Shown: positions 5,165-59,884 of the stretch, one piece after another
How positions within the stretch are numbered: position 1 is the first letter of the stretch
Layout of the letters: the number at the start of each line of letters is the position of its first letter
Made by a program: the position numbers and the translations under genes
The notes under the pieces: generated by a model
The model's input: the letters and a program-made list of their open reading frames with translations, nothing else
Databases searched by the model: none
Told to the model about the DNA's origin: nothing
NCBI RefSeq assembly: GCF_039555335.1
Contig: NC_092628.1
Location: forward strand, 34,928,965 to 34,992,964
DNA from: Amphiura filiformis
Lineage: Eukaryota > Echinodermata > Ophiuroidea > Amphilepidida > Amphiuridae
Length of the DNA: 64,000 nt
Reading direction: 5' to 3'

Positions 5165-6600
5165 ACAATTCAGAAATAATGAAGCTCGAAAAGGTCCATG
5201 TTCTCTCCCATTACTCTGCCCTTAAAATGTGTTGGTGTATGATACATGGTTCTTCTTTCCCCTGTAATTTGACATGGTTAAAATGGGGTTTCTGTTGTAA
5301 ACATAAGTTGACAAACTTGGTTGGACGCATTCTAAGCATAAAACTGATTGTAAGTTGTACAGTAATAAAGAATAAATTTGTAAAAATTCACAGTACTATA
5401 AATAAGTGAAGCCTTAGTTGAATTGATGCCAAAATGCAGGTCATAGATGTTAGGTGTTGCAATACTTGTACAGTTTGAGTTGAATCATATATATATATAT
5501 TGATGCATTTGTAGATTTTTACTTTCTCTTCTAGTGTGTGTTTTTGTGTTCAGCTTGTAGACCCAAATCTGATATAGTTGTGTTAGTGCTAAAATTACTT
5601 AAACTTTGTTTTATTGTGCATTTATAATGTAGTATGGTGTGAACTATTTGTTTGCAAAGGTAATACTTGTTGGTCAAGATGGTCAATCAGAAAGACTGTT
5701 TTGAATCAACCATGTAAGAAAAAGATGTTTGACAATCATGTACAAGCGATTTATTGTGCTATGTATCTTAACCATTTACTGCTAACCAGGCAGATCACCT
5801 GCCAGATGTGGAGTCTGAATCCAACTTGGGTATGCACAGATATTTGTGTCGAGCATACTACGTAAAGACCACATGCTTACGGCGTAAACACTGCTTTTGA
5901 GATTGATGAATCAATACTGGCAAGGTCAAGGTTTGGTCATGTAGGTCGCATGATCGTGTTATTCCAATGGCACAGAAGGTACATCCTCTCATGATCGAGC
6001 ATTAGATATTTTGCCTATAATAGGTGTGTCAGTTTGCATGTAATTTTGCAATTATTCCAACGGCAAATCTCCAGCAGATTTTTGCTGGTGTTAAAGTACA
6101 CATATCTCTGAATATATGATACACTTATTTACACACTCATAATATTGCATCAATTTAAGTCTTAATAAAAGATGTGTATACATACGAATAGCGAGATCAG
6201 AGGGGAATACATCCTCATTTTATATTGGACTTGCCAATCTCATAGAATAATGTTGAATTGTAACATATGTGCACCAGGTGTGTAGGCCTACATCTGACCA
6301 GACCTATTCATGGTTTGCAATTATTTCACTTTTCAATAAAACTCTTAAAACAATTTTCTTAAAATGTGTTGCACAAATTATGTGATCTCCAAATTACACC
6401 TATTCATCTGATTTACTTGTTCAAGTTGGTGAAATTAAAGTGCCTATGTGTATATCCTGTGTTAAATGAATTGAATGGCAATGCTATTTTCATACGGGGA
6501 TGGTATCAGAAGTTCACCATTATACCTTATGTAATTGTTTGCATAGTGCAATGGCTTTGTGTATTGAGGCAGGGTTGATATCTTCTGTTGTGGAATGGGT
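5165..6600. other. Intergenic, nothing recognised
   Basis: AT-rich DNA with a short (TA)n run at about 5487-5500. Small open frames (about 70-83 codons) carry no recognisable features. Confidence 0.4.
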
Positions 6601-6705
6601 TATTCCAATTAAAATCTATACACCAACTATTGAAGACATTACCTTAATTTTGAACATAGGGAGTGCATGTCTTCCATTGGGAGTGTATGGATTTCAACTG
6701 GAATA
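6601..6705. mobile_element. Short MITE, family with the copy at 42601
   Basis: The left end TATTCCAATTAAAATCTATA is inverted at the right end as ATGGATTTCAACTGGAATA. The same ends delimit a second copy at 42601-42744. At about 105 bp and without coding sequence, it is a miniature inverted-repeat element; its superfamily is not assigned. Confidence 0.6.
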
Positions 6706-6820
6706 GTCCCAATACACCAGAGGTTATTTGATGTCATATTATTTATTTGGCCTAACTTTATTACATTTGAAAGGTGATGTGAAAGCACCAAGAAACTGAA
6801 TATCATTGTCATAATTAGCA

Positions 6821-7048
6821 GGGCTGGGCCTGAACTTTTTGAGGCACTAGCCATTCGGGCTTTTAACTCTTAAAAAGTTACAAGCCTGACAAATTTTTGT
6901 CAGCCCGAATAAATAAATCGGCAGCACTGGGCTTGGGCTGGGCCTGAACTTTTTGATTCACTAGCCATTCGGGCTTTTAACTCTTAAAAAGTTACAAGCC
7001 TGACAAATTTTTGTCAGCCCGAATAAATAAATCGGCAGCACTGGGCTT
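6821..7048. repeat. Two tandem copies of a 114-bp unit
   Basis: The unit starting GGGCTGGGCCTGAACTTTTT at 6821 recurs at 6935 with almost no change. Each unit contains an internal inverted repeat: ATTCGGGCTT with AGCCCGAAT, and CTTAAAAAGTTACAAGCCTG. The close identity suggests a recent duplication. Confidence 0.85.
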
Positions 7049-7191
7049 GGGCACAGGGATAGCATTATTGCTAATCCAGAGAGAGGGTGCTTATTTGATC
7101 AATTCAGCAGCTACAATGTGAGTTGCTAATTGAAAGTTGGGGGATCGTAATCATGAATTGAACTTGCCACAACCTATGGAGGTATAAAAAG

Positions 7192-7454
7192 CCGGGGGTG
7201 GTCACTCCCATTGTGGCCTGTACACCATCCGTGATAATCAACTTTTGAAAAGCATCCTAAACAAGGATTTAACCCTTGGCTAAAATGATACCCTAAACAC
7301 GGATTTTCTTCCTTGCATCAAATTTCATACCCTAAAATTTATTTCAAACCCTAAACATGTTAATGTACGTGCGTATCGTGCCTACCCACGAAAAACTACC
7401 CTTTTTACGCGTTTTCATTATCACGGATGGTGTACACAATGGGAGTGACCCCGG
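7192..7454. mobile_element. MITE, 'GGTCACTCCCATTG' family (full copy)
   Basis: The ends are inverted repeats of about 35 bp: GTCACTCCCATTGTG and CACCATCCGTGATAAT on the left mirror ATTATCACGGATGGTG and CACAATGGGAGTGAC on the right. A second copy with the same interior starts at 63745 and runs off the window. There is no coding capacity. Several CCCTAAAC blocks occur inside. Confidence 0.8.
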
Positions 7455-8423
7455 ATAAAAAGTTGTCAAAAATTGAATACTTAATTATGTTGGGGCGGCA
7501 TGTAGGACTTATTTATGCCAATGCTATGAATGCCATATTATAACCAATTGAATTACCAATACTCTGAGTGTCAAAATGCCACATGCCTGTCAGGCTAGTG
7601 CATTCAGAATGTTACAGGTCCGAGAGCAAATGAACACGCCCCATTGGTGCGGCGCGCAGGCGTGTGTAGGAGTCCAATCATTATTAGAAATCAAAATTGT
7701 AATAGCTAGCATGCACACACAGCTTTATATACAGTGAAGCACAAAATATAGTGTAATTTTGAAATATTTATTAGGGGACTCTTTTTTGCAATGCATAAAG
7801 TGTAGAATTGGGTAGTCTGCATTCCTAATCTGGATAGGCGAGTACACTCAGAAAATATGTGAATATGCATATTTTCAGATTAGGGATTACTCTTGACTTA
7901 CAAATGTGCAGTACAGAATTTTGAAACATGAAAAGCATAGCTATAGTGGTTCAATTTTGCCAGAAGTAAATAACAACATCTCAAACACTAACAACAATTG
8001 ACACAGCCGCCTCATCAATGTGTGACGTTTATTAGAAGTTTCATTTTCAATATGAATTGTATTTTAGCCATTATGGTTCTGTAAGGAACAATAAGTAAAT
8101 CAAATCCTATAAAGTTGTTTTACAGAGGCAGTGAATGGTCAGGGGGTGCTCCAATTATATTTTCACAAGAGTGTGCCGCTGGAACTCTGAAAACCCTACC
8201 CATATTTAGTGATTTCTTGCCGAAAAAAAAAATCTGGCTGATTTGGCAGTTTTGACCAATTTTTTGAAATCGGGAACCATGTTTAGGGAATTTTTTTTCT
8301 CAAATCAGGACCCAATGTTTAGGTATTTTTCTTGTAAAACTGAGCAGCACATCCCTGTAAACCTCATATATACGTGAGTATCTCCCCTTGGAGTGAGTGT
8401 AATTGAAAAGTGTTGCTAGTTCA
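7455..8423. other. Intergenic, small inverted repeat only
   Basis: No gene seen. A small inverted repeat (TCCTAATCTG with CAGATTAGGGA, about 7827-7888) encloses CAGAAAATATG...CATATTTTC. Confidence 0.4.
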
Positions 8424-8431
8424 TTACAATT

Positions 8432-8725
8432 CAGAGGCATAACTAGGGGGGAACATGCCCCGGGCGCCACCCATAGGGGTAGTGCCAAATTGACCAATTC
8501 AGCATTGATTCTGTGCCCCTCCAAGTGATGAAAGTCAAATTTTTATTTCATTAATTGAAAGAACATTTTAAGACCGATATTCAACTTCTAGTAACCAAAA
8601 TTAATTAGTGGTAGGCCACATTAATTTGTCCAAAATTTCAATCGCGCAATTGTTTCAAGAATGGGGGGGGGGGGGCAATTATGTATCCCTAGCCCCGGGC
8701 GCCACAACCCCTAGCTATGCCACTA
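8432..8725. mobile_element. hAT-type MITE with 8-bp target duplication
   Basis: The element begins CAGAGGCATAACTAG and ends CTAGCTATGCCACTA, an inverted pair typical of hAT non-autonomous elements. It is flanked on both sides by TTACAATT (8424-8431 and 8726-8733), an exact 8-bp duplication as hAT transposase produces. No open frame of note. Confidence 0.85.
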
Positions 8726-8931
8726 TTACAATTTATATAATTTGAAATGTGAAAATTGCCTTAGCATAAAAAATGTATAAAGGAAATTATTTTTATCTGT
8801 TTTATGTATAATTATGATAGAGTGAATTTGAATTGGACAAATCTGCAGTTTTAATGCATGGAACTACATGTATCCAGTAAATGCAAAATATTATACAAAA
8901 AATGTTAATATGTCATGTTATGTAAAGGGTA

Positions 8932-9225
8932 TATAAAGGGTTCAGTAACATCCAGAAAGTGTTGACCAAAAAAATATGCAAAAACATTTTCCCAAAAATA
9001 TTTTGCAATAACATTTGGACAACGTTTGTATTGTGTTTTGTTTGTTTGGGTTTTTTAATTTTTTTTTATTTATTTAAAACGTTTTCAAAAACTGTTTTTA
9101 TAACCTTTATGCCTAAATAACCTAGCTGACATTTAAATGTTATTAAAAGGTTTTGACCACAACTAAAATGTGTTGATACACATTTATAATGTTTTAAAAA
9201 CCTGTTTGTGTTTGCTGGATGGTAG
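8932..9225. repeat. Dispersed repeat, family with 24825-25490
   Basis: The block from GGGTATATAAAGGGTTCAGT to GTGTTTGCTGGATGG is matched by 24825-25490, with shared ends and repeated AACATTT, AACGTTTT and ATGTTATTAAAA motifs. No coding sequence. Confidence 0.6.
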
Positions 9226-10790
9226 TATAGTAGTTGAACTGTAAGTTCTTATTCATATGTTCAACCAAGTCTTATCAAGTATATATGTAATAGTAGTTCT
9301 GCTGTAAATTCCTCTTATTATGGCAAATTCAATCAATTAACTCCAATTTATTTCCATTATTAAAAATCTTTACATCAAAAAGTGACAAAAAATGATAAGA
9401 AGTCTGAAAACAGAACACTCTTTTGCACCTTTATTAGTAGCTTAGATGTGCTAGCATAGCTTGCTAGTGGTCAAGCCATGTATTAAAGACAAAATTGGAC
9501 ATTTATTGGCTTATTGCAATATCTCTACTTTTACATGTAGAGAAATTAGCTACATGTATTTGAATGGGGCTTCAACTTTGTCAATACTGCTGTTTTCCTT
9601 GGTTTTGCCCAATTTTTCACTGCAGAATACCTGATTTATTCTTCACTTTATTCTGATTTATTCTTCACTTTATTCTTCACAATATATACACAATTTTTAT
9701 ATTTTTTACACTTTCGCTGCAATCACTGAAGGTTTCAAAATTGGTGAGAATTTGCAAATTTGTGAGAATCAGTTTTGAAAAAAGAAGTAACGTGCATATT
9801 GCTGGCATATCTAATCTGATTCGGGGAATAATTTATAATTATATTATTTGAAGGCAGCCATGTTATTATGGAAATTAAGAATGCCGCTCTTTGGTTAATC
9901 TTTGTAAAATTTGCATTTGTAATTTTGTGGAATTGAGAATTTGTTATACACAGAGCGATCTTTGAAAGAAAACTCAAGCATACAGGGTATGTACATTGTA
10001 TAGCGTTCGATTTACCTGGTGCGTAGCAGAGGAAAATGCTCCCCATTTTGGACAACCTGCTACACAAAAGAAATACAATGGATAATGGAACAAAAGAACA
10101 GGGTCAGACATTGTGAGTTACGGCTTTCTGGCTCTCAACCGTTGAAGTAGTTCTCATAAATTGAAATTGTAGAATTATTTTGTTCATAAATTCATATTAT
10201 ACTGTAGCTTTAAATGTATTTTGTGTTCTGTTCTGATGGTGAAAGTTGACCCATTAATGTTCCAATACAAGTTTATTTGATTGATTGTAATATTATTTCA
10301 GTACTATATTGTATCTTTCTTTGGTGGCTGTATACAATTATTGTTGATGATTACACAATATAAATAAATTTCTGGATTTAAAATGTGTTGAAAATGGTAT
10401 ATTTTGTTGGTGTTCAACTTGTTTGATGCATCTTATTATACAAGGTCAAAGCTCAAAATTACTCCAATTTGGTTAAAAGCTGAAAAGTTATCACATTTTA
10501 ATGAAAATGTTCTCAAAATCTTTATCTTTTGTATAAAACCAGACTGGTGTCTGTGTAAGCTATCTTCAGAAGATAGCTTGGTACCCAAACTATTTCTTTC
10601 AAATAAAAAATTACTGCCCATTGATGTTGACGTATTTTTCTGTGTTACCCATGAAATGTCGCACATAGTGAAAATTAATTTTCCTGAATTATCATAACAA
10701 GACCAAATTTATATTTTGAGACTATATCAAAATTGGACAAATGTTTTTATGTGTTTGATCCTATGGAGTCCACATTTTCGCTATTAACTC
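9226..10790. other. Intergenic, nothing firm
   Basis: AT-rich sequence. A 110-codon minus-strand frame at 9735-10067 has no domain or start context and is treated as noise. CTCAAAATTACTCCAATTTG near 10453 resembles the outer arm of the foldback that follows. Confidence 0.4.
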
Positions 10791-10794
10791 CAAA

Positions 10795-11410
10795 CTGATT
10801 GGCCGAAGGTAGGTCAAAATATATTTTTTTCTGAATCCTAGGTTGGTCTGAACCCTGGAATTATGAAAACTTTCGGGCCTCATAACTGCTAAATTATTAG
10901 TCTAAAGAATATAAAAGTATACATTTTAGAATGGAAATGATTTGATGAATTCATCTGTGATGTCCAATTTGGGCCAAAATGCTCATTTTTGGAGAAAATC
11001 CCAAATTTTTTCGTGCAACGTAACAAAAAAATTGTTTGGCCAAAAAATTTTTTTTATTAATTTTTAAAAACTAGATAAAAATATCTAGGGGCCGTTTTTT
11101 AATTTTTTTTAATTTTGAAACCGTTTTTTGAAACCGTTTTTGGGGATTTTTGAAACCGTTTTTTGGGATTTTCTCCAAAAAAACCGTTTTTTGGGATTTT
11201 CTCCAAAAATGAGCATTTTGGCCCAAATTGGACCTCACAGATGAATTCAGCAAGTCATTTCCAGTCTAAAAATGTATACTTTTATATTCTTTAGACTAAT
11301 AATTTAGCAGTTATGAAGCCTGAAAATTTTCCAGGGTTAAGACCACCCTTAAGGAATATTTTGGAATAGGTTTTAACCAAATCGGAACAATTTTGAGTTT
11401 TGACCCCTGT
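10795..11410. mobile_element. Foldback element with long inverted arms
   Basis: The left arm (about 10850-11010) includes AATTATTAGTCTAAAGAATA, AAAAGTATACATTTTAGAAT and CCAAAATGCTCATTTTTGGA. All recur inverted in the right arm (about 11195-11340). The centre is poly-T/A rich with short direct repeats of the CCGTTTTTTG type. No transposase is present. Confidence 0.75.
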
Positions 11411-11501
11411 GTACACTATAGACCCTGAATTTCTCGGAATGCTCGCATCCGTTATATTCTTAAATACCTCAGATGTCAATATTAAAACTTTACACTCAAA
11501 A

Positions 11502-11875
11502 CAGTGGCGTACCGTGGCCGCCCCAACCCCGGGGGGCTGAAGAAGAAACAATTTTGCCGCCCCTTCCTTTAACAGCACGAAAAGGTTGACCCAATTTTTT
11601 CACGGTCGTTTGAAAAAGTGAAGAGCAAAAAAAAAAAAAAAAAAAAAGGATTTTAGGCGCTAGCGTCCTAAAAGCAACCTTTTTCAAAATTTTGATGCAT
11701 TTTCCATTTTTTGCGCCCTTTTTTCTTTGCTAATTCATTTTACCGCCCCCTTCGTTTTTGCCGCCCCAGTTTTTGCCGCCCCTTCTTCTTCCGCCGCCCC
11801 TTCGTTTTTGCCGCCCCTACTTTGACCCCGGGGGCTGGCGCCCCAAAGCCCCCCCAAAATACGCGCATGCAAAAG
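11502..11875. mobile_element. hAT-like end with GC-rich interior
   Basis: CAGTGGCGTACCGTGG at 11502 matches the hAT-type ends seen elsewhere in the window. The interior is rich in GCCGCCCC repeats. A possible degenerate right end (TACGCGCATG) lies near 11861, but no clean 8-bp duplication was found. Confidence 0.45.
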
Positions 11876-12201
11876 CAAGCAGTTGAATAACTAGAATTTT
11901 TCCATTCCACAAATCCACCAAAAAGTTAAGCGGGGTGGGGTAACACACCCCATCGACAAAAAAGTCCAATTTTCGGAGTAAAAAAATTCAAAGAAGGTCC
12001 AAATATTAAGAAGAAAAATTAACAAAGGTGCCATTTCTGTTCCAAATAGCCCACAACGTTCATTTTAGACGGATGTAGTCCACTTTTGTCATGCAAGTGA
12101 GTTTTTGGACATTTCTCACCCCTTCCCGGTAAAATATCTTGGCTACGGACCCCTATGTCTAAATTTGATCTCTGATTCTCGGGGGATACATTCAATGTCG
12201 G

Positions 12202-12476
12202 CAGGGCCGTTCCGACCATTAGGCCAGGTAAGGCGGTCGCCTAGGGCGGCAAACGCAGAGGGGCGCAAAACGGGAATGGAGAAAAAAAGGGAAGAAAAAA
12301 TAAGGGCGGATAAAAAGAAAAATGGGAGGAAAAATAAAAAGGGGGCGAAAAGAGAAACAGAAAACAGGGCGGAAAACTGAAGAGTTTTCAAGGGGGTAAC
12401 CCCCCTTAACACTTTTTTGGTGGGGCGACAGGGAGAGGCTTTGCCTAGGGCGGCAAAATCCCTAGGAACGGCCCTG
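12202..12476. mobile_element. hAT-type MITE with perfect 8-bp target duplication
   Basis: The termini CAGGGCCGTTCC and GGAACGGCCCTG are perfect inverted repeats. The flanks are AATGTCGG at 12194-12201 and 12477-12484. The interior is A/G-rich and non-coding; the purine-rich open frames on both strands are composition artefacts. Confidence 0.88.
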
Positions 12477-12881
12477 AATGTCGGAGATGGGAGCCAGAGG
12501 AGTTAAGGAGTCAGTGGCATTTTGGAACAGAAGGGTCGAAATTGCCAATTTTAGCAGTATAGGCCTATCGAGTCATTTTTCCTGCTTTTTTGGATGTTTT
12601 ATTTATATTAAAAAAAAGGTAACAGGTTTTGATTTTGTTTCCATTTTGTTTATGGAAACAGTATTTTTGTGGGACATGAGAGCACATCAGTCATATTGAA
12701 TTCCATTCTGAATACGAGGAATGTCCTGATATCAAATAATTCGATTTTTTTTAAAATATGTGATATAAGCATAATCCCGGGCATAGGCCTAATACAAATT
12801 TTATGGCAAATTATTGATCAATATTTTTTTGTAATTTTTGATATATAACATTCCTCGAATTAATGCGTACTTAAAGTGTTA

Positions 12882-13677
12882 TAGGGTACCTGCAGGTAAT
12901 ATAGGACCATTAAGGACGTTTAGCTTATTTGTATAAAAACTAAAGAAGATATGCCCACAAGAGATTGTTATGATGAACAACCTGTCCTTTAAGATTAATA
13001 AAACAGGCAATGTTACCTTGTTTTTATGTTTGTTTGGACGCTATGACGTCAAAATGACGTCATCGTCAAGTGTCCCATATGCAGGTAATATGGGACACTG
13101 TGTTATCTCTATGGTGAAAATCAAAAAGTTCAGAAAATCACTCTTTTGTTCTAAAAACATTTTTGTTACATGATTTTGAATGTTAAATGCAAATTTCTAC
13201 AAGAAAACTCAATTTTCTAAATAGTTTTGCTTTTCGCATTGACAATGCACACAATTTCCTATGTGTCCCATATTACCTGCACCCATTCAGTTGAAAATCA
13301 GAGAAAATAATCGTTTATAAAAGGAAAGTGCCACTTGTCAGTGGAATTTTACCTGCTGATAAGCTTAACCCATCACCTAAAGATCATAAAAAATGACAAA
13401 TGCCCCCTCAGTACCAGAGATTTTGGATGTGACGTCGTTGATTTTATATCAGGCCAAAAAAACCACATAATTTTTTAGGCAATTTCACTCTTTTGGCATT
13501 GATTTCCAAGAGTTTGATACACAAACTCCAAAACTGCATTTCTAGAAGCACAATTGATGTCTCTAAACACTTAACAAATCAACTTAAAGTGTTTACCTTC
13601 TCTAAGCTACTTTTTTGTTAAAATGAAAACAGGTGTCCCATATTACCTGCTGTCCCATATTACCTGCACCTACCCTA
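12882..13677. mobile_element. TA-flanked element with GCAGGTAATATGGGAC inverted repeats
   Basis: The left end reads TAGGGTACCTGCAGGTAATA and the right end is the inverse of TAGGGTAGGTGCAGGTAATA. TA flanks both sides (12880-12881, 13678-13679), and the foldback sequence on either side is continuous once the element is removed. The motif GCAGGTAATATGGGACA recurs in both orientations at about 13081, 13263 and 13633-13666. It has a TA target and no transposase frame; Tc1/mariner-like mobilisation is inference. Boundaries are ambiguous by 2 bp because TA repeats at the ends. Confidence 0.78.
13044..13062. promoter_or_regulatory. Two TGACGTCA palindromes (CRE-like)
   Basis: TGACGTCA occurs at 13044-13051 and again at 13055-13062, inside the transposon. 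This matches the full CREB/ATF consensus. Function is unknown and it may be incidental. Confidence 0.3.
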
Positions 13678-14532: not shown

Positions 14533-15384
14533 GACCCATTCCATGTCAACTCCAGGGATGTGCACCGCAGCACCTCTTCAATTTTTTCTTTTTCTATGTG
14601 GTGGTAGATATTGATGAGAAAGTAAAATCCCGAAAATTTGAGCTTCATACTCCACTAAGTTTTCCCGTGGCATCAATTTGAAATTCAGGGGGTCAGCATA
14701 AAATATGTGTCGCAACGTGAAAGACGACGTTTGGAGGTCCATGAATGTATAAAGGGAACCCTTTACAACTTTGAAAAGTATGTATATCCTGCGGTACTTT
14801 TTTGTGTAGAATTCAAATCTGGCATCAGAAAACTTGTAAATCCTTTACTTTAAAAGACATAGGGCCCTCAAAATGCAACTTGGATATTGGATAAGAGCAA
14901 TGTCCTACCAGGGCTCTGACTGGCAAAAAAAATGGACAATAAAATTTTTACTTTCGGAGTTCTGACCCCCCGAAGTTGGTCCTGGTCAGTGGACGAAGTT
15001 GCATTTTGAGGGCCCTATATCTGTTAAAGTAAAGGAGTGACAAGTTTTCTGATGCCAGATTTGAATTCTACACAAAAAAAGTACCCCAGGATACATACTT
15101 GTTAAAGTTCAAGTGTAGGGGGTTCCCTTTATAGGCCTACATTTATAGCTATTTATGGACCTCAAAACGTCGTCTTTCCCCGCGTCTTTCGCGTTGCGAC
15201 ATCGACACATTTTTTACGCTGACCCCCCTAAATTTCAAATTGATTCCACGGGAAAACGAAATGGAGTATGAAGCTCAAATTTTCAGGATTTTACTTTCTC
15301 ATCAATATCTACAACCACACAGAAAAAAGAAAAAATTGAAGAGGTGCTGCGGTGCACATCCCTGGAGTTGACATGGAATGGGTC
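14533..15384. mobile_element. Foldback element, about 350-bp inverted arms
   Basis: The left arm begins GACCCATTCCATGTCAACTC and the right arm ends GAGTTGACATGGAATGGGTC, perfect inverse ends. The similarity continues inward through GTGCACCGCAGCACCTCTTC, TACTTTCTCATCAA, TTTGAATTCTACACAAAAAA and GCATTTTGAGGGCCCTAT. No coding capacity; open frames repeated on both sides merely reflect the palindrome. Confidence 0.85.
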
Positions 15385-16665
15385 CTTTACACCTTTATGG
15401 ATGGCGCTTTTCATATTTCTTCATGTATGCACAGGCGGTGATGGAAGCGATATTGCCAATTTTGACGGCGCCATTGAATTAACACTTCATGAAATCTTTA
15501 CAAACAATTCTAAATTTGTTATGTGGTGTCAAAGCAAAATTATCTTACTCTAAAACCGTCGGGGTTCGACAAAGTACCCCACTGTAAGTATGTTAATTTT
15601 CCATTTGTAATTGCTAACCGTGTTTGGAATGGGGTGGTCAGCCCTGTATCGGCTTCGCCAGCCTCGTACGTCACGTGTTGCGTGACCTATGCCGCCTGAT
15701 ATGCAGGCGACACGTTCCCATTTGACTTCCATTCTGTAATACCAATATGGCCAATGGTGACTAAATGCGCTATTTGCCTTATCTTGAATGTCTTTCATAT
15801 TAAGAACTATGCTACATTTTAATTTGCACGGTGCGCAAAAAGTAGATTTTCCCCGGGAGGTTTTCCTGCCGGGGAGGGCCAAATCCAACGAGGGGTCTTG
15901 AACACAAGAAAGGCGGCACTTTCCCTAGCTACGGTCGCGGTAGTAGGCCTACGTAGGCCTAGTTTTATGATCATTTAGTTCTGTTGAAATTCGCGGACTG
16001 AGCGTGCGGCCTTTAAAAGGCTCAAATCTTTGCAATTTCCCGGGTCCCCCTACCTCAGACATATGACTCTGGTCGTTATTAGACTTTTATTTTTGACCTG
16101 AATTTTGGCCGTATGAATTTAAATCCATTGAAGGGCGCTGCCAACACGCAAGTTCCCCGGCCCGGCCCCTTGAATCCCTTAAAGGCCCTTTCAGTGACCC
16201 CAGTGAAAGTGCAACAAAATTGATATTGTTCATAAATTATCTGAAAGTGAAGGATAAGTCATTAAAATTGTCATTAGGTATTCTTGAAATGAAAAAAAAA
16301 TGGCAAAAATGATGAACTTCAGCAGTAGGCCTATTGAAAAAGCTGAGACCCCATGCGTCTGTGAATTTACGGGCCACTTTTTACAGTGTAGGCCTACTGT
16401 CAGTATACAAATTACAGATTCATGTAAATGGCCTTATTTTGTTTTAAATACACAGCTTGCAGGCTATGTTATAATGTAGCACATCTATGACATGACAATC
16501 ATTGTAGGCCTACCAAAATCTCCTTCGATGATTTTTTCGATCGTCGGGATGAGCAAATCACTGAATGGGCCTTTTTTGTCAAAGAGCTTTTATAAACACA
16601 GAGTGGCAATAGATTACGTACTGCTTTGTTCCTTTAATGCCGATTTGATTTTCCGACAGGCTATT
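15385..16665. other. Intergenic, rich in TAGGCCTA
   Basis: No gene seen. TAGGCCTA occurs at 15944, 15954, 16326, 16389 and 16505. The minus-strand frame at 15550-15888 has no recognisable feature. Confidence 0.4.
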
Positions 16666-16668
16666 CAT

Positions 16669-16806
16669 AAAAGTGGTAACGCATATTTAAAAACGGCACT
16701 TCTGCACTGCTTTCTGCTTCTTACTAAGATCGTCAATAACTCCCTCTTTTCTGGCTGCTTTCCTGCTGAACTACGTAGGGCTACCATCACGCCTGTGCTA
16801 AAAAAG
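16669..16806 (+). mobile_element. Fragment of a non-LTR retrotransposon reverse transcriptase
   Basis: The plus-strand translation includes LTKIVNNSLFSGCFP followed by ELRRATITPVLKK. This matches the N-terminal reverse-transcriptase signature of CR1/Jockey-type LINEs (…I-x-N-x-S-L-x-x-G-x-F-P…K-x-A-x-x-x-P-x-x-K-K). Only about 45 residues are recognisable and no catalytic YxDD box follows, so it is a dead scrap. The call rests on recalled family patterns, not a search. Confidence 0.6.
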
Positions 16807-16872
16807 GTGTCCCTTGTATGAAAAGACGTGTTTTTTTTCCCAAGAACAAGAGATGGAATTCCATGGGAGAAG

Positions 16873-17520
16873 ATACTGTAAACTTTAAGCAGAATGATGA
16901 CACTGTATAAATTTCAAGGAAAAATATTGACACTGTAAACTTCAAGCAGAATGGGGACACTGTAGACTTCAAGCAGAAAGACACTGTAGACTTCAAGCAG
17001 AAAGACACTGTGGACTTCAAGCAGAAAGACACCGTAGACTTCAAGCAAAAAGACACTGTAGAGGCTTCAAGCAGAAAGACACTGTAGACTTCAAGCAGAA
17101 AGACACTGTGGACTTGAAGCAGAAAGACACTGTAGACTTCAAGCAGAAAGACACCGTAGACTTCAAGCAGAAAGACACTGTGGACTTCAAGCAGAAAGAC
17201 ACCGTAGACTTCAAACATAATAAATGAGGGGGCAGGAATCCAGCACCTTTTGGCGACAAAAGAAGTGTATGGTACAAATGCGCGCGTTTTTTAAGGTTAA
17301 AATGACCAGATATGAGGTTAATTAATAACTCTCAGAAGTAGGCCTACTTTAACTTTTTCATTTTGGGGGGCAAACAGGGGGAAAGGGTTCAAAATGGGGG
17401 GGGCTCCAGCACCCGCTGCCCCCCCGCTGGTTACGCCACTGACTTCAAGCAGAAAGACACTGTACTCTTCAAGCAGAAAGACACTGTAGACTTCAAGCAG
17501 AATGATGACACTGATGTAGA
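16873..17520. repeat. 24-bp minisatellite, interrupted
   Basis: The unit CTTCAAGCAGAAAGACACTG plus TAGA repeats about 14 times up to 17214 and about three more times from 17441. Units differ by single bases (GTAGAC, GTGGAC, CCGTAGAC), and edge units contain AGAATGATGACACTG variants. Because 24 is a multiple of 3, open frames encoding CLKSTVSF repeats arise on the minus strand; these are not genes. Confidence 0.9.
17215..17440. mobile_element. hAT-like insertion inside the minisatellite
   Basis: The right end GTTACGCCACT is hAT-type, and the interior (ATCCAGCACCTTTTGGCGAC, GGTACAAATGCGCGCG) is shared with elements at 57121 and 62037. GACTTCAA borders both sides but is also part of every minisatellite unit, so it does not prove a target duplication. 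The left terminus is not recognisable. Confidence 0.6.
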
Positions 17521-21870: not shown

Positions 21871-21876
21871 ACTTAC

Positions 21877-42744: not shown

Positions 42745-42915
42745 GCTCATTTTGTATGTCAACTTTTGTTTCAATTTTTGTATGGTCACAAGTTACATGT
42801 ATGTACATATTTGTTTAATATCACATCAAATATGTGTGCATGTTATGGTAAATCTCATGAAGTATTATTATGGTGTCGTAAGATTGTTTATCCATGTATT
42901 TCATCTCAATTTGTT

Positions 42916-47330: not shown

Positions 47331-47331
47331 T

Positions 47332-47592
47332 CCATTTTGCTTGACAAACCAAGTGAATTTTTATGCACTATAATATTTCATCCTTCACAATGGAGGACTT
47401 CATCAGATACGACTGATATGGTCATCTGATCCGCTTTCCCAGGAAACTGGTTTCCGGTTCTTCACAAGTCTCTTTTCCAGTCTTTAATAAAAAGATGATC
47501 GTAGACGTGACTTCTCTGGTCACGGTTTCCGATGTGAAGGACTGAAATATTGAAGTGAGTAAAATTCACTTTGTTTTGTCAAGCAAAATAGA
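47332..47592. mobile_element. MITE with ~55-bp inverted ends
   Basis: ATTTTGCTTGACAAACCAAG and TAATATTTCATCCTTCACA at the left mirror TGTGAAGGACTGAAATATTG and TTTGTTTTGTCAAGCAAAAT at the right. The interior is slightly GC-richer and non-coding. Confidence 0.75.
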
Positions 47593-48925
47593 AATATTTG
47601 TTCAATGGTTCAATGATTTCTTTTTGTTGTAAGTTTCAATTGTAACACATTGGATGTGTTGAACTATTCTTTTCTATGACCGACTTAACTGTTTTATGTC
47701 TGGTAATTAAGAGGCTCATTATTAGAGCCCCAGGAGCCCCCTCCCCATGAGCATGGGTACCTCATCTCTACTTTTACTAATAACCCCTTTACACTTTGGT
47801 GTTGGTAAAGGTATGTGCTGGATCAAAACTGAATAGGCAGAAGTCTTGCAATTTGAACAAAAAGACCTGCTCAAACTTGAAGCAAATGCACCCTGGGCAG
47901 TGTTTACTTCTGTCCATTGATTCATACCAATTTGGCACTGACCAAGTATATTTAAAAAAGGAAAGGTGTATTTACTTTGGTAGTAAATTTATAAACAAAA
48001 GGGTGTACTGCTGAAATTGTTTTAAAAAACCGGGGTTTTCACACAATAATAGGGTTATAGAGGCCAATTTTTACAAAACAATGTAAATGTGAAAGCTAAA
48101 CTGTATCTAAAATTAGAGCAAGTTGATGAAATAAATCATGTGGATTAAACTTAAGTGTTTATGTATTGTATGTATTTTAGTTTGTCCTAAGGGAAACCTT
48201 ATGCCAGCAAGTTTTCAGCATGATGCAATGTATTTTGCCAAGTTCTACCAATTTGCATGAAAAAAGAGAGCATTTTTAAAAAGTGACATCCTTGGGATAT
48301 TCCCTCCTTCAGGGTGATTCCCACTGGCTATTGTAACAGGCTCATTACAGTGTGACAGATCAACACTCACTGGCCATCCTCATATTTATCATGTTTTTAG
48401 AGAAAAGTCTTCCTAGTATGTTATATTTGAAATGCTCTCTTGTCTCATTCAAATTGGTGTAAGTTGGGGGCAATAAAGTTGCAAAATATTTGAATGATAT
48501 GCCTATTGAGTGGCACCTATGAAATTATAGGCCTAATTTGAAATAATTTTATCATGTTTTGAGGTCAACTATTCATTAACCGAAAAGAAAGAATGGAATA
48601 AATCTTTGGTGTACCAAAAAGGAAACCAAATCATTTCTATAGTCTTAGAAGTCGCATAAAATGATCCCTCTGTGATCAACTAAGAGGCAAAACAATAAAC
48701 CAATAATCAAATCCAAGATTTAAAACCTTAGATCTTTGTGAATTTATAATCGGTGAAGTTGAAAAAGTATTGAACCACTTACCCTTAGCTACTACGTTAG
48801 TGTCACCTGAACAACCTTTACTAGATGCATTACGTGTAGTCCTTAAGTTTGATGTGTGGCTGACTCATTTTAAGGTTGTCAAAATTGTTCTAATTTCTCC
48901 CTGGAGGGGGCACACACATATAAAG
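47593..48925. other. Intergenic, nothing recognised
   Basis: No supported features. Confidence 0.35.
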
Positions 48926-49160
48926 GTGGTACGTATCCCGAACGGGTATATGCGGCGGTCAAGGTTCCCTTTTTCAAGCTCTCCGGCAGTTCCTCAAGAC
49001 TTTCATTTAGATCATGCTCCAGTTCTTCAAACTTCTCTTGACAAGCTGTTATCTCAAATTAGGATTTTTTTAGCTCAACAGCATATAATTTGGCCCAATT
49101 TTCGTTGACTGGACCCCCCCCCCCATGTTGAAATTTCAGTTCATCAAGCCAATATTTTGC
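48926..49160. repeat. Dispersed repeat shared with 52478-52695
   Basis: AGGTGGTACG, GCGGCGGTCAAGG, CATCATGCTCCAGTTC-like and ATAATTTGGCCCAATTTT blocks occur in the same order at both sites. The 112-codon frame overlapping this copy is not conserved in the other and is not a gene. Confidence 0.65.
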
Positions 49161-49310
49161 AATTTTACCCTATTTGGGCCCAAATATGGGTGTTTTACGG
49201 GCTAAAGAGGAAGATGCACTAGGCAATTTTGAGGACCCCCAAAATCTGGGGGGGCTGGGCCCATCTGGCCCTGCGAACAGTGATGTCTGTTATCCATGAT
49301 ATACCCACAC

Positions 49311-49557
49311 AGTGCCGTAGCCAGGTTTTTGGAACTTGGGAGGTCGGGGGGCAAACTTGTGAATGTACCGATCGAACAATGGAAATATTTTTGCTGGCGG
49401 AAGTTGTAAATTGTTGACCCCATTCCCCAGTGCGCAAACAATCTAAACGAAATTATCAATATTGTTGACCCTAATTTTTTTTTCACCAACATTAAGGCGC
49501 ATCGTGTACCGACGGCCCAAGATGTACCGACGGCCCTGGCTATAATACCCCACTGTT
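49311..49557. mobile_element. Possible hAT-like fragment
   Basis: CAGTGCCGTAGCCAGG at 49311 and CCTGGCTATAATACCCCACTG at 49537-49557 look like degenerate inverted hAT ends. No 8-bp duplication found. Confidence 0.35.
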
Positions 49558-50711
49558 AACTGACATAAGAGTTCTAAACTGTCAGAAGTCACATCCTAAC
49601 CATATAGCTCCATATCTTTGTGTTAAATAAATAAATGTTTTGATAAGTGATTTCATATTGATATCCTACTGACGAAAGGGGAAAGGTCGATGTGTGCGTC
49701 TGTATTTTGTGTTCGTTGGGGTTAATAGCTGTTGTTTATGGCCGATATCATAATAGACCTGCAAATACCGACTGATTATACAGAATTGTTTGACAGAACT
49801 AGAAACAGCTTTGTGAGAAAGAGCACAAGAGCGACAGTGCAAGTCATGTTCATCATGGTCATGATCAACAGAAATGTTTTATATAATTATATTTGCAGGT
49901 AAGATATTGCAATCACTTTTTCTATTATAATGATTTGATTTATGAGGAAAAAAGAATAGCTGGCTGGCAGACTGATCAGCCAGGATTGGTGGTTTGAGGT
50001 TCAAGTCCGTAAGACCCCGACCCCGGATGATGATTGTGACAAACCTGGTCACAAACATGTTGACACTACACATGTGTAGCAGTGTTGTAGTCGAGTCCTC
50101 ATCATCCGAGTCCGAGTCCTTGGTGTCCGAGTCCCAAGTCCGAGTCCCTGCCAATTTCTGATGTCCGAGTCCGAGTCCTCAATGTTCGAGTCCGAGTCCT
50201 TATGTATCAAATTCAAGCCCCGGGGTTTTCACCAATACCTTATCAACCTAGGCCTATACTTAACCAGAATTTTAGTTCTATATTATTTAGTTCTAAATAC
50301 ATAATGTGCTAGTCCTACCTAGCATGCTTAGTATTGTTTTGTGGCTGTGCAATAATTATGCGGAGCCCGGGAAGGGTGTAATTGCAAAAAATGCTTATCC
50401 CCTCTCAGCGGAGCCTGCCAAAAATCGCTTGCCCCGCCCCCCGGCCTGCCAAAAATCTTCGCACATGCCATTTCTTGCTGATTTTGGGGGGATCCCAATT
50501 TACAAACTTTAAATGGTTTAGATAATTATGTCATGTATGTTGCGAGCGTAGCGAGCAGGGAAATTTGCATTATGTAGGCCTAAGCGTTTCTGTTCTGTTT
50601 TCTAAGTCTTTTTAGAGCGTTTTGAAAGGTGCCCCATAGGAATATGTGCCAAAAATTGTTTGTTCCCCCCTCTCGGCTTGCCAAAAATTGCTTCCACCCT
50701 CCCTTTCAATC

Positions 50712-52254
50712 GGTAAAATTTTGGGGACTGCTCTATAATCCGAAGGTTCTTTAATCCGAAAGTCCTTTAGTCCGAAGGTTCGCTAGTCCGAACACGTACG
50801 TGTTCATAGCATTCGCTAGTCCGAATTTTAAAAGAGGTTCTCTACTCCGAAAAAAAATTGAAGAGGTTCTTTATTCCGACGGTTCTTTATTTCGAAGGTT
50901 CTATAGTCCGAATTTTAAAAACGGTTCTCTAGTCCGAATATGAAAATAGTCTCTATAGTCCGAATTTAAAAAGGGTTCTATAGTCCGAATATAGAAATAG
51001 GCTCTATAGTCCGAATTTTAAAAAGGGTTCTATAGTCCGAATATAGAAACAGGCTCTATAATCCGAATTCCAAAAAAGGTTCTCTATTCCGAAATTGCAA
51101 AACGGTTCTATAGTCCGAAACGGATACCGTGTCCGAATCAGTAAAAAGGTTCTATAGTCCGAATTTTAAAAACATTAACATAACTTTTAGCTAGATACGA
51201 CTAAAGCAGAGTTTATGGTAAACGAGATGACTCTACTGCTAAAATAGCGTACACCACCAAATCACGATGTAATGTAGATGGATTCCAGTAAAAACAAAAA
51301 TCTTTTTAGAGATATTTTGGCCTTTCTGTGGAAAAAAGAGAGGCATGTTATAGCTTAAATAAAATGAGACCTACACATGAACTTGGATCGCCCAAAAAGT
51401 TGCATAACACAATTTTTGAATAAAGTAGGTCCTCGGAATGACAAATGCCAATAAACGGGTTTTCAGGGTAGAGAACGGGTCGAAAATGATGATGTTTTAA
51501 TCACAAGACTACCCGTACATTGAAACATTTTACACCCCGGGCACCTCCAAATCGCAAGATAAAACTATACTTTAAATATTCTGTATAATTTGATTAAATG
51601 ACTAAAATTTGTTAAAATGAAAAAGCCGCAGCATTTACATGGTGGGATGGCGCTATGAAAATTTAAACTCGACAATGCCTGAATACATCGTAGAGTATTA
51701 CTAGTATATAATATTATAATGGAATGAAAAATAGATAAAATGACATAACGGGAAATATCCAGAGAAACCAACCATGTTGAACAGCAGCGGATTTGTATTT
51801 AACAATTGATGATTTGACACTGAAACAAATGATAAAAATAAAATTCGGACTATAGAACCCGTTTACCAATTCGGACTAAATAGCACGGTATCCGTTTCGG
51901 AGTATAGAACCGTTTTGCAATTTCGGACTAGAGAACCTTTTTTCAAATTCGGATTAGAGAACCTATTTCTATATTCGGACCAGAGAACCTTTTGTTAAAT
52001 TCGGACTATAGAGCCTATTTTCATATTCGGACTAGAGAACCGTTTTTAAAATTCGGATTAAAGAACCTCTTTTAATATTCGGATTAGGGAACTTTTTTTA
52101 AAATTCGAACTATAGGCCTAGAACCTTCGAAATAAAGAACCGTCGGAATAAAGAACCTTCGTAATAAAGAACCGTCGGATTAAAGAACCTTCGGACTGAA
52201 GAACCATCGGAATAAAGAACCGTCGGACTATAGAGCTTCCACCAAAATTTTACC
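50712..52254. mobile_element. Foldback whose arms are minisatellite arrays
   Basis: GGTAAAATTTTGG at 50712 is inverted at 52242-52254. From 50745 to 51170 a unit like GGTTCTATAGTCCGAATTTT repeats about 18-20 times at 20-25-bp spacing. From 51843 to 52235 its reverse complement (AATTCGGACTATAGAACC) repeats about as often. The central 670 bp is single-copy and non-coding. The two arms can pair over roughly 400 bp in many registers. Confidence 0.88.
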
Positions 52255-52477
52255 TTCCCCCCATGCTCATAATTTTTGCTCAGCCCTTTAGGTAGCATAC
52301 CCTGGAAACAGAGTATAATCACAGACTTACAGTAACTTATTAGGCTTGTGTTTTAGAGAGGCAAAAGATGCAATATTACAATCAAAATATGACGTCACTA
52401 CTAAACCCCAGGTGCCAAACGAAGAGGTGTTGGATCCGGCTGTAGGCCTATGCATTAGGCCTAATATTTCTGTGATG

Positions 52478-55052: not shown

Positions 55053-55190
55053 TTTTTTGGCTTTTAAATTCTGCTCTGTATCCCTTTTATAAATTTCAGA
55101 TGACACCTAAGACTGTGGAATTTATGGATTCATATTTTTTTCAGTTATGATCAATCGGTGGGATTAGAAATTACTTTAATGGGCGTTCTC

Positions 55191-55345: not shown

Positions 55346-56555
55346 TTAGAAATATGTTTTGGGGTTAGGATTTGAAATAAGAGTTAGACCTACCATGGTT
55401 ACAGTTCCAAAACGGAGGGATCGTAAGGCCTCCTATATAGATATATCTTTACAAGCTGTTGCGGCGACTGAGGGCTATATCACAATTTCATGTATCACCA
55501 GAACCGGGGATCAGAAGTGTATCAGAAGATAGGAAAAAATGCTAAGTCCGCAAAGACTGAAAAGTTATCGAGATCAACCTGTATGACGGTGACAGCCTAT
55601 TTGCCTACATTCATACATTTTGTGTGATATGTTTCCGCTTTTATTTTTTTGTTTTATTTTTTTATAAATCTTATCAAGCATATTAAAAAAAAAAAAAAAA
55701 ACGATTTTAAGAAATTTGAGAAAAATGCAGTTTTGTGATTTTTATTGCAAAAACGACCATTTTTTAAAGATATTTTTGTTTTGATTCGTTTGTGAAATTT
55801 GAAACTCTTATGACTTTCATAATAGGAGATCAGGAATGTCCCTGAGTATGTTGACTGAGTTAATAAAGTTTGACAATGACCATGATCAAAATCGCCATAC
55901 TAGGATCCACAGCATGCTCATCTATCAGGGGAACAGTTCTTAAACCCCAACACATTTGTACATTCATTGAATGACCTTAGAAGATTTGAGTACAAAAACT
56001 CATATTCTGCAACTTGAGGTCAAATTTTGCACTATGATTATGTAATTGAGGTTATTGGACTATGTCATTGGGATGAGGCTCTTGTGGGCCATAGTGTTTT
56101 ATACGAAGTCAGATTTTGCAATTCGGAACAAAATATTTCAATTGAATTTTAAACAAATGCGAATTTTAAGCTGTTGAAATCACAAATGGAAACAACTTAT
56201 TTTCGTTCGAGTATATACATAAGATATAATATGCATAGAAACGTTCGAAAAAATCGCTTTCCAGCACTTCTAAGAAAATAATATTTCAAAACTACTTACT
56301 GTATGGTTCGTATAATATATAAGAATCCAAATATTACATTCTATGACCATTCTTTGACAAGTGATTTTTGGTTTATTGCCTAATAACTATTATCATCTAT
56401 TAATAATTATTTGAATGCCAATCTCCCCCTCCCTACCTACGAATAGGCCTACACGCGGTCATCATTTCTGACCGATTTCATTTTGGCATATATATAGGCC
56501 TAACCGATTTCTCTTTGGCATATATATTAACGTGTTTTTTTTGGCCTCTTGATTT
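55346..56555. other. Intergenic, nothing recognised
   Basis: A poly-A tract lies at about 55684-55701; no gene seen. Confidence 0.4.
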
Positions 56556-56762
56556 TCGATATTGATTTTTGATACTCGATAACCAATTCTTTATCAATAA
56601 TCAATAATCATTTGATCCTCCTCTACCCCTCCCCATATACAACCAACCTAGCTATTAGCCATTTCATTTTCCAGTATGTCGTTGCATTTAAGTTATCAAC
56701 ATCGATTAATATTGATACTTGATTGATCGATTATCGATTATTGATAATCGATTATCAATTAC
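56556..56762. repeat. Cluster of ATCGAT / TTGATAATCGAT motifs
   Basis: Short self-complementary blocks (TTGATTTTTGATACTCGATA, GATCGATTATCGATTATTG, ATAATCGATTATCAATTA) crowd this interval and its right end can fold on itself. Function unknown. Confidence 0.6.
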
Positions 56763-57120
56763 CCTAACTCCTCCCTGCCCCCCCCACACACAAGGAAATT
56801 GTGCTGACAAATGCAAGCCCCATGATGCTACAACAAAGCATTTTGTATAGTTTTTTAAGGTTGGGCCCTACTAGATAGAGTACTAGAGTATTTGCACTGA
56901 TGCAAAGTACAATGTACATAAATAATGTACTTTCTATGATATAGGGGCCTATTTTAATGAAATGAACACTGTCCATGACATTATGCTTTTGGCATTTTGC
57001 ATTAATATTTTTATTTATTTACTCCAGTCCTAATAATGTTATATGAATTTGTTTGGAATAATTTCCATGAGGAAGTTTTTTGCAAACAGGGGTTTTATAG
57101 AAGTTTCAGAGGGAAGTTCT

Positions 57121-58177
57121 CAGGGGCGGCGCCAGGGTATTTTGATAGGGGGGCAAAACAATTGTGGAATTTGTATGCAGCGCGACAGCACTGGCCGTCG
57201 CGCTTGCGCGACGCAGGGGGGTGTCTGAGGGGGGATGTGCCCCCCTCAGAATTTAGAAAATTTTCAAAATGAAAGCACGAATGAAGCCATTTGATGCACC
57301 ATTTTCACCCTTTTTAGGGTTATTTATTTATTTTCTAACCGCATATTTTTCGGGATTTCATTCACGGGCCCGACTTTCAGCCTGCTGGTTTTAGGCATGG
57401 ACCTACTCAATTAGTAAATCCAGCACCTTTTGGCAACAAAATAAGTTCGTGGTACAAATGTGCACGAAGTGAAATATGGTGGAAACGTTAAATAAAGTCG
57501 CGCGAAGCGCGAAAAAATTTGGCACTTTTTAGGCTAAAATCCTCAAATATGAGGTTACTTTGGTCAGAAACCCACATAGGCGTCAACATTGGGGAATGAT
57601 TGTATGGACCATCTGGGGGGATTTATACCCCACACCTCGGGTCAGATCTACGCCTCTGGTCGCAACGCGGTGTATGTTAAGTCAATTGCATTGTATATAA
57701 ATTGGCATGATAAAATGATATGAATGGGGGGTGTCTTGAGATTGGAAATATTTCAAATTGAAAGCCACAATCAAGAGCATAGGCGGGAGGTAGTCGCCCC
57801 CTATGATCACTAAAAGCCGAAAAGGTCCACTTTGCGAGCGTAGCGAGCGAAAAAACCCCAGTTTTTTATGCTTTTTCAGTCAGAAAAGGACAAACTTTTA
57901 TGGGGGAAATTTGCCGAAAATGGGCCCAAAATATAAAAACCAATAACTTTAAAACCACGTAGGTCAGCATTCCAAAAGGGTCAAGATGTCCGAAGGGGGG
58001 GACACTCCTTCTAACCATGGCCAGGAGGGAATGGCTCCTTTTCTTCTTTTCCTCCTTTTTTTCTCCCTCCCTTTTCTCTCCTTCTTCTCTTTCTCTTTTC
58101 CTTCCTTTTACCTCTTTTTGAAAATCATAGGGGGCAATTGCCCCCCCTTGCTCCCCCCCCCCGTGGCGCCGCCCCTG
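57121..58177. mobile_element. 1.06-kb hAT-type element with 8-bp target duplication
   Basis: The termini CAGGGGCGGCGCCA and TGGCGCCGCCCCTG (with one extra G) are inverted. The flanks GAAGTTCT (57113-57120) and GAAGTACT (58178-58185) match at 7 of 8 bases. The interior contains ATCCAGCACCTTTTGGCAAC and GCGCGAAGCGCGAAAAA, shared with the insertions at 17215 and 62037, and GCGAGCGTAGCGAGCG. No intact transposase; C/T-rich frames are composition artefacts. Confidence 0.88.
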
Positions 58178-58185
58178 GAAGTACT

Positions 58186-59884
58186 CATTGCTTGAACATC
58201 GGCAAGTTTATTTTGCATAACAGAAAGGGCATACAACTGCATATTTTAATACAAAATGGGATTTGGCTTTGCAGACTGAAAAGGATGAGGGGAGTTATTC
58301 ATCCCTATATGAGATACTATTGAGCCAAAATGATCTCATCTCCTATGGCAAAGTTCAATTACCTCCATTCAATAGAATATAGCTCAAAGTTGACCTCCAA
58401 TTAGAGAGTATGGAATTTTTTACCCAACAGACTCAAAGGTCATTCTATGGGTATACAAATATATTGGATTTAAAGAACTGTGTACTGGAAGATGTTATTA
58501 TGTTATGTGACTTGACTTGTGGTATATTAATTGTTTTAACAAACATGTTTCACCCCTGTCCCAAGGATGTCTGTGTTTATATTTATCATTTCAGAATGTC
58601 ATAAATATGTATCAATTGAGGAAATGTCTGATAGTGGGAAAAGAAAGGTGTTGTGTTGCACACTTTTGGAGTTAGTCAATTACCGAGGTCAATTAGACAT
58701 GAAATTGTAGAAGTTCAAGTTTAAAATGTTTTGTATTGCCCGCCTGCCTGGTAATACAGTAATACTAGTCTGATATAATTGGTTTATGCAGTTTTATGCA
58801 CATTTTGTTATGCAAAATTAACTTGCAGTCAAGCCTATAGTGAATTGTACATTCAGTCTATAGGCCTACCGGTCTATCATGAATCATGATATCATCAATA
58901 ATGTATGTTCAGAAATGGGTGTTTGAAAATAATATTTTGTAGAGTGTCAAAGCATATTGATATGTAGAAGCTAGTGGAAATGGGTCAAAATGTGCCTTAT
59001 AAATGGAAATGGGTCCAACTATTTACCAAATGGAAATTGGTGCAAACAAAGGTAATTTGAGTACCTATGGTGGGAAATGACCTGAAATAATTATTATAAT
59101 AATTATGAATTTATGATGACGATGATAAAGTTTTGTCACCTTTAAGGTTATTACCGGGGGTTATTAATTTTAAACTGTTGTGATTTGGTAGTTCACAGCA
59201 TCTTACGAATGGTAGTGAGCTTTGGCAAAAATTGCATTGCTCAATTCATTCCGAGCGTATAGAAGAATTAAAATATCACAGATATACTTTTATAGGTGCT
59301 GCGGTTCTTGAGTCACGTTGTGAAGAGGGCTGAAACAACAACACTTTTGTAAAACGTACATAACTAATTAACAACAATAAATTAAGCAAGTTTGCAGAGT
59401 ATACGATTTGTAGAATGAACTTTTGCAAAACATCAAGGTGTTAATTTTCAATAATATATTGATCTAGATAATGAAAATCGATTTTTTTTAGGTTGCTTCG
59501 ACCAACAATACCTCGTCTACCTTTAATAGGCAGAGTAAAAATTGTTCTTTCTGGTAAGTAAGCCCCCTCTAATGAAAACCTTCCAAAAGTGTTTCTTTTA
59601 TATTAGGGAGGCTATAAAGCATCTCAACTTCCTAGACATCTTAAAAAAATTATATAACTCAATTAAAAATAAAATAAATAAAATTGAAGCAACCTTAAAA
59701 AAGGAAGCGGTAGGGGACGAGAAACATGTTTTAGTTTTATTCGGCTTTATACTGACTGATATATGAACATTTTATTTAAAAGTTGATTAGTTGAATATAT
59801 ATATGAACTGACCACAAAAAAAGGTCCATTGTCTTCCCCGGGTGTTCCGGGGAGAGCGGGAACTCCCACTTGGGAGGTGACGTG
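58186..59884. other. Intergenic, nothing recognised
   Basis: No supported gene. Small frames lack features. Confidence 0.4.

Follow-up and report, generated by a model that had tools for sequence, protein, structure and literature searches.

The palindromic octamer TAGGCCTA in a genomic window of Amphiura filiformis: candidate excision footprints of a TA-specific transposon

Introduction

The nearest named phenomena to the sequence feature described here are the excision footprints of Tc1/mariner transposons and the HIP1 palindrome. Footprints of the Tc1/mariner type that are sealed by end joining are heterogeneous, with variants around a main form. Cut-and-paste footprints in general are summarised, in an excerpt of a published description, as two target copies enclosing a few element bases, and for Sleeping Beauty an excerpt of PMC7827188 gives three-base 3' overhangs at the donor site upon excision. 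HIP1 is the cyanobacterial word GCGATCGC, for which PMC4390886 discusses densities around one per 1000 nucleotides and a debated origin. Here, we describe the exact palindromic 8-mer TAGGCCTA, which is strongly over-represented in a 64,000-nucleotide stretch of the brittle star Amphiura filiformis (assembly GCF_039555335.1, contig NC_092628.1, positions 34,928,965 to 34,992,964; hereafter the window). A first-pass annotation, made from the letters alone, had taken it for a recurrent transposon excision scar. We give about an even chance to the reading that the octamer reflects repeated gain of GGCCTA at TA through excision footprints of a TA-specific cut-and-paste transposon, and set out below the evidence and the rival explanations.

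Abundance and uniformity of the octamer

TAGGCCTA is in excess over chance: it occurs 35 times in the window against 0.56 expected, the latter being the mean of 100 dinucleotide shuffles (maximum 3), which corresponds to about one copy per 1.8 kilobases (kb) and is roughly sixty-fold over chance. It ranks first among the palindromic 8-mers of the window, followed by TTTTAAAA and AAAATTTT with 21 each. Markov models of orders 0-3 predict 0.5-1.2 copies (orders 1-3: 0.51 to 1.18); those of orders 4-6 predict 5.4, 17.8 and 31, high values that arise because most occurrences of the long sub-words lie in the octamer itself. The first-pass annotation had put the random expectation at about one or fewer. 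The count does not match a composition model. Each of its 34 coordinates is exact; one further site, at 1882, had been overlooked. The sites are as follows.

1882-1889: inside the C2H2 zinc-finger open reading frame (ORF) 860-2605, read as S-S-R-P-N-G; a 6-base gain there would preserve the frame
6283-6290: isolated, context GTAGGCCTAC
12560-12567: context ATAGGCCTAT
12784-12791: right end of a 24-base difference from four aligned repeat arms without the octamer
15132-15139: within 16 bases by which one arm of the foldback repeat 14533-15384 differs from the other
15944-15961: two octamers, TAGGCCTACGTAGGCCTA, a perfect 18-base palindrome
16326-17710: six octamers, starting at 16326, 16389, 16505, 17339, 17662 and 17703
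20388-20395: the cleanest case, GAAGA-TAGGCC-TATGGA versus GAAGA-TAT(A/G)GA in two other arms
20505-20512: start of a 25-base difference, CCTA[GGCCTACATGTATAATTGTAGCCTA], missing from three arms; TA common with TACATGTA at 20511
25458-25465: TA common with TACATGTA at 25452
25767-25774: context ATAGGCCTAT
32743-34164: nine octamers, the densest group, AT-rich, starting at 32743, 33384, 33502, 33583, 33668, 33715, 33819, 33948 and 34157
48528-50582: three octamers, starting at 48528, 50249 and 50575
52113-52120: in a 26/52-base minisatellite; five aligned stretches without the octamer, alignment ambiguous
52443-52463: two octamers, within TAGGCCTATGCATTAGGCCTA
56444-56502: two octamers, the second, by eye, with a tandem ACCGATTTC...GGCATATATAT unit on each side
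58861-58868: the final copy of the window

Once sites less than 100 bases apart are merged, 27 separate loci are left, and their flanks differ. Spacing is strongly clustered, with 8 gaps below 100 bases against 1.84 by chance, and the distribution is very uneven: nine copies lie within 1.6 kb at 32701-34300, and none lies in the 14 kb from 34165 to 48527 (largest-gap P 0.026). This octamer-free interval is the region of the second zinc-finger gene and the DNA after it; the interval 2606-12500 holds one copy only.

TAGGCCTA is also an all-or-nothing word, its neighbours and its sub-words elsewhere being at background. The 24 one-mismatch neighbours total 19 in the window against 14.8-20.4 expected, that is, there is no decay halo, and outside the octamer GGCCTA is found 13 times (15.6 expected), AGGCCT 10 times (9.1) and GCCTA 76 times (68.6). 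Among the 16 palindromes of the form NN-GGCC-nn, the one with TA ends accounts for 35 occurrences and the remaining 15 have 0 to 4 each. Assuming that every copy began as an exact octamer and decays neutrally, the missing halo bounds their average divergence at no more than about 3-5% (one-sided 95% bound); any scars would have to be young for the same reason. Six other 8-mers examined for a halo gave a mixed outcome (clear for TAGTCCGA and TGACCCCT, slight for AGACACTG, none for GACCTTTG, CTTCAAGC and TACATGTA); the test is therefore only moderately discriminating and the bound supporting rather than decisive.

Target and flank preference

The flanks were analysed by treating the octamer as TA plus GGCCTA, so that 35 sites provide 70 half-sites. 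The base outward of TA is C at 25, T at 30, A at 10 and G at 5 of these, which amounts to a pyrimidine (Y) at 55 of 70 (79% versus 51%; P 3e-6), and the pattern R-TA-Y (R, purine) is found on both flanks at 21 of the 35 sites, whereas 26.4% of all 4,798 TAs in the window conform to it (P 5e-5). The control palindromes TACATGTA, TACGTA, TATATA, TAGCTA and TAAATTTA have 25-58% Y outward, and the non-palindromic control TACCTA has 65%. TA density within 30 bases of the sites is not raised (4.97 versus 4.84). In two cases, at 20511 and 25452, a TA is common to TAGGCCTA and TACATGTA (0.19 expected; P 0.016), as serial insertion would give; a TA shared by the octamer with a second GGCCTA, or with GGGCCTA, GCCTA or CCTA, was never seen in the window.

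Three other origins of the word and its flanks were considered and rejected. Growth through chained TA-bounded words is at odds with the TA density and with sharing that occurs twice only, with TACATGTA. A telomere-like fusion (TTAGG/CCTAA), giving TTAGGCCTAA, is a misfit to outward bases that are mostly T or C, with only 10 As. AGGCCTAG, a ZFX-type binding site, fares no better, G following at only 5 half-sites.

Gain versus loss at repeat copies

In a BLAST self-comparison of the window (expectation value, E, up to 1e-3), five of the 35 sites (12784, 15132, 20388, 20505 and 52113) lie in repeats with another alignable copy and 30 do not. All copies aligned to these five lack TAGGCCTA, and a gain of the octamer at TA is, on these alignments, supported where it is testable. 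At 20388, where three arms were compared, two show a clean 6-base gap and the third a gap of 10 bases. The 25 bases extra at 20505 include TAGGCCTACA...TGTAGCCTA, which form a small inverted repeat, and the gain there may for that reason be one insertion rather than several. At 12784, placement of the 24-base gap by eye lets the extra bases end in GGCCTA; at 15132 the 16-base gap is seen against one arm; and at 52113 the comparison is between minisatellite units and is ambiguous, since TATAGAGCCTA forms also occur among neighbouring units. For 20388, 20505 and 12784, where several copies agree, gain is the simpler reading.

Four of these sites had been presented in the first-pass annotation as cases in which a paralogous copy shows the pre-insertion state, TA having become the octamer each time. 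The arms or stretches aligned at all four do lack the octamer, but 'each time' was overstated: the difference is cleanly 6 bases at 20388 alone, and there against two of the three arms, while it is 25 bases at 20505, 16 at 15132 and ambiguous at 52113. The related expectation that insertions are preferentially 6 bases at TA has a mixed outcome: one of the five testable differences is cleanly 6 bases, and of the small insertions listed from the self-alignments GGCCTA is the one 6-base insert that recurs at two places, but most insertions and deletions are of 2-4 bases. The opposite course, an ancestral octamer decaying to TA, does not look to have been taken.

Several neighbouring features emerged from the same alignments. 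The foldback repeat family at 40407-41020, 17843-20757 and 12658-12863, which has TTAAGGG-like ends by eye, supplies the arms against which three of the octamer sites were compared. Beside the octamer at 15132, positions 15141-15156 read ATTTAT-AGCT-ATTTAT, by eye like a 6-base duplication around AGCT. In the foldback repeat 7194-7460 the left arm gained 5 bases with GGCC (TTGT-GGCCT-GTAC versus TTGTGTAC in the right arm); a second copy of this repeat, at 63746-63897, also has GGCCTG, which makes that gain a shared one, unlike the gains of TAGGCCTA.

Candidate donor elements and other TA-bounded words

A scan of the window for inverted repeats with TA at both borders yielded the following candidates.

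59885-60826: candidate donor type, 942 bases, TA flanks, terminal inverted repeat GGGGARACTGGGGTAATTGTGGCC, target G-TA-T
12882-13677: candidate donor type, 796 bases, TA (or TATA) flanks, terminal inverted repeat GGGTAssTGCAGGTAATATrGGAC, target A-TA-T
23821-24731: weaker candidate, a foldback element with TA-GGTATGCTAGGTGAATTC ends within a complex palindrome, target T-TA-C

The first two are both well bounded, with GG...CC ends and R-TA-Y targets, and by eye their ends have a GGTAAT core in common. In 59885-60826, 17 of 18 end positions are paired and 1 of 10 outward, and the longest overlapping ORF is 92 amino acids; in 12882-13677 the figures are 16 of 18 and 2 of 10, with a longest overlapping ORF of 90 amino acids that runs beyond the element's end. 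The donor type predicted by the first-pass annotation, TA-GG...CC-TA with terminal inverted repeats, is thus present in the window, and either element, if cut out with a 2-base stagger, would leave TAGGCCTA.

The same rule applied to CA...TG ends gives TACATGTA, which is the footprint of Tc1/Tc3 (in C. elegans for Tc1). Among the 16 palindromes TA-XYyx-TA, GGCC (35 versus 0.51 expected) and CATG, that is TACATGTA (13 versus 1.4), are the most raised, with TATATATA third (9 versus 1.7 expected, or 3.5 at order 2).

8865, 9532, 9551, 20511, 22067, 23370, 25452, 38796, 42619, 42794, 44750, 45549, 53471: TACATGTA, 13 copies versus 1.4-2.0 expected

Ten of these 13 have no TAGGCCTA within 1.5 kb; spatial exclusion between the two words is suggestive only (P 0.09) and was set aside, there being no correlation in 8-kb bins. 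At 21385-21604, a TA-flanked inverted repeat with CA...TG ends is only loosely bounded, 15 of 18 end positions being paired and 4 of 10 outward, and 7221-7434 was rejected as an element of this kind: its inverted repeat continues past the TA after a 5-base gap and it is not well bounded.

Excision footprints as the favoured reading

In the model that we favour, a TA-specific (Tc1/mariner-like) transposase would insert an element with GG...CC ends, preferring R-TA-Y as target and duplicating the TA. On later excision, each 5' cut would fall two bases inside the element, and end joining would fill and seal the two GG 3' overhangs to give TA-GG-CC-TA. The elements described above, or relatives of them, would be the donors, and the transposon that left the footprints would probably be young. 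The support drawn from the sequence consists of the count, the all-or-nothing octamer, the flank preference, the absence from aligned copies and the nearby TA-flanked GG...CC elements. What marks a footprint, two TAs around bases that match element ends, is present as TA-GGCC-TA at 35 sites, and the model fits the word, its palindromic form, the target and the neighbouring elements.

A number of findings weigh against this reading. A clean 6-base gain is confined to 20388; three of the five testable differences exceed 6 bases and one is ambiguous. Partial scars are not in excess in the window (TAGGCTA/TAGCCTA 6 versus 4.5 expected, TAGGTA/TACCTA 27 versus 24.3), and GGCCTA, AGGCCT and GCCTA beyond the octamer stay at background; this lack is unexpected for end-joining scars. 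Only the 9-mers TAGGGCCTA/TAGGCCCTA, previously put forward as imprecise scars, are slightly raised (2 versus 0.23 expected), a number too small to carry weight. TA elements with TT...AA ends, such as 46118-46712, should give TATTAATA, yet this word is not raised (3 versus 3.3); that speaks against any simple rule by which all TA elements leave scars of two bases. For two or three resident GG elements, 35 scars is a high number, and, with ends that differ at 1 of 24 positions in 59885-60826 and 3 of 24 in 12882-13677, at least the latter looks older than the scars. No transposase gene was found among six window ORFs scanned against Pfam (three gave zinc fingers, three nothing), and patterns from both donor-type ends had no match in IMG/VR, which as a virus collection provides weak evidence. 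In the strictest flank control, the base after GCCTA outside octamers, Y reaches 62% (n=76) against 79%, making the flank preference less striking. To our knowledge, the density and uniformity of TAGGCCTA exceed those of known Tc1/mariner-type footprints. The model does not explain the missing partial scars, the numbers of sites and elements or the uneven distribution, and because of these three points we place excision footprints at about an even chance and regard direct insertion as their main rival.

Alternative explanations

Direct insertion of six bases at TA without a transposon, although possible, strikes us as distinctly less probable than excision footprints. Here, a break at TA would receive two Gs per 3' end, in a template-independent or enzyme-templated manner, and then be closed to give TAGGCCTA; alternatively, the insert would be a very small duplex or hairpin of palindromic sequence. 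The uniform product without an excess of partial forms suits one fixed chemistry over variable end joining, the 25-base gain at 20505 resembles a tiny inverted-repeat insert, some octamer pairs form compound palindromes (15944, 52443), and donor-type elements are few for 35 sites. The R-TA-Y preference and the TA-flanked GG...CC elements are, on the other side, predictions of the transposase model, and we know of no precedent for a template-independent reaction that adds exactly two Gs to each side in every case. More speculatively, there may be a dedicated and very active TA-specific insertion process in the animal germ line, with fast turnover, which adds GGCCTA as a fixed unit at R-TA-Y; TAGGCCTA would then represent an iterated palindrome of a eukaryote, spreading through insertion and not through point mutation, each new TA becoming a further target.

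Maintenance of a HIP1-like motif, in which point changes create the octamer and selection or biased repair (through a binding protein, methylation or repair) keeps it, is unlikely. An exact palindromic 8-mer at this density resembles HIP1, and upkeep would give a sharp peak without a decay halo; but what separates the testable sites from their copies is gaps and not point changes (52113 being ambiguous), the zinc-finger ORFs contain just one of the 35 sites, and the octamers are spread very unevenly, with none in 34165-48527. In addition, one-off sequences, which an excerpt of PMC4390886 describes as common in many HIP1 genomes, are here at background.

That TAGGCCTA belonged to old repeats from the start, with the lone TA forms as deletions, is highly improbable, and we rejected this reading: five sites do lie in repeats, and the direction at 15132, with its single comparison arm, is open, but no copy shares the octamer among four arms at 12784, three each at 20388 and 20505, one at 15132 and five minisatellite alignments at 52113, and for the other 30 sites the window offers no alignable copy at E 1e-3. 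Chance, composition, a low-complexity array or an assembly artefact is a similarly remote source of the excess, for which the strong clustering would speak but against which stand the shuffles and low-order Markov models, at about 0.5-1 copies, and the 27 loci with varied flanks; chance and composition were rejected on the basis of those models.

Other features of the window

The window is rich in foldback and tandem repeats. A tandem array rich in TTAATGACCTTTGACCCC occupies 26990-30174; its period is 146/292 bases, and it contains large blocks that nearly duplicate each other (84% over 1.2 kb). The minisatellite at 50732-52232 is built of TTCGGACTATAGAACC-like units, which together form a large inverted repeat. 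C2H2 zinc-finger ORFs were identified by a Pfam scan at 3-929, 860-2602 and 36651-38024, and a PDB search with one window ORF returned zinc-finger proteins. The 34 octamers listed in the first-pass annotation lie outside these ORFs, as its claim that none is in a coding exon would have it, but the overlooked copy at 1882 lies inside one. The zinc-finger coding region is in two overlapping frames, 3-932 and 860-2605, a sign of an intron, of a frameshift or of an assembly error around 860-930. Neither the Rfam scan nor the tRNA scan gave a match in the window.

Significance and comparison with known systems

If the octamers are scars, they document the departure of transposons densely, at about one per 1.8 kb, in a form invisible to similarity-based repeat annotation, and past cut-and-paste activity could be dated and mapped by counting one exact word. 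Otherwise, a process new to animal genomes inserts a fixed sequence of six bases at TA. Among the open-licence PubMed Central matches listed, judged by title and the start of the abstract, no description of TAGGCCTA as a genomic repeat was found. Three closely spaced octamers do occur elsewhere, in 11 IMG/VR and 27 bacterial or archaeal stretches with 3-9 octamers each, in tandem or close together; a pattern from the window's GACCTTTGACCCC repeat had no match in IMG/VR.

With the footprints of Tc1/mariner transposons the octamer has in common a TA target, its duplication, and a few end bases between the TAs, which are palindromic if the ends are inverted repeats; it differs in its GG/CC bases, in occurring as a single exact form with partial variants at background, in its density, and in being known from sequence alone. 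Non-autonomous TA-flanked elements resembling miniature inverted-repeat transposable elements (MITEs), such as 59885-60826, are alike in their TA flanks and GG...CC ends, and excision with a 2-base stagger would give TAGGCCTA; they are 0.8-0.9 kb long, whereas the octamer has nothing between GG and CC. HIP1 is likewise an exact palindromic 8-mer, but one for which an excerpt of PMC4390886 describes one-off neighbours in many genomes and a link to a methyltransferase. In contrast to HIP1, TAGGCCTA has no halo (19 one-mismatch words versus about 15-20), its gains look like insertions, and it is found in animal-like DNA.

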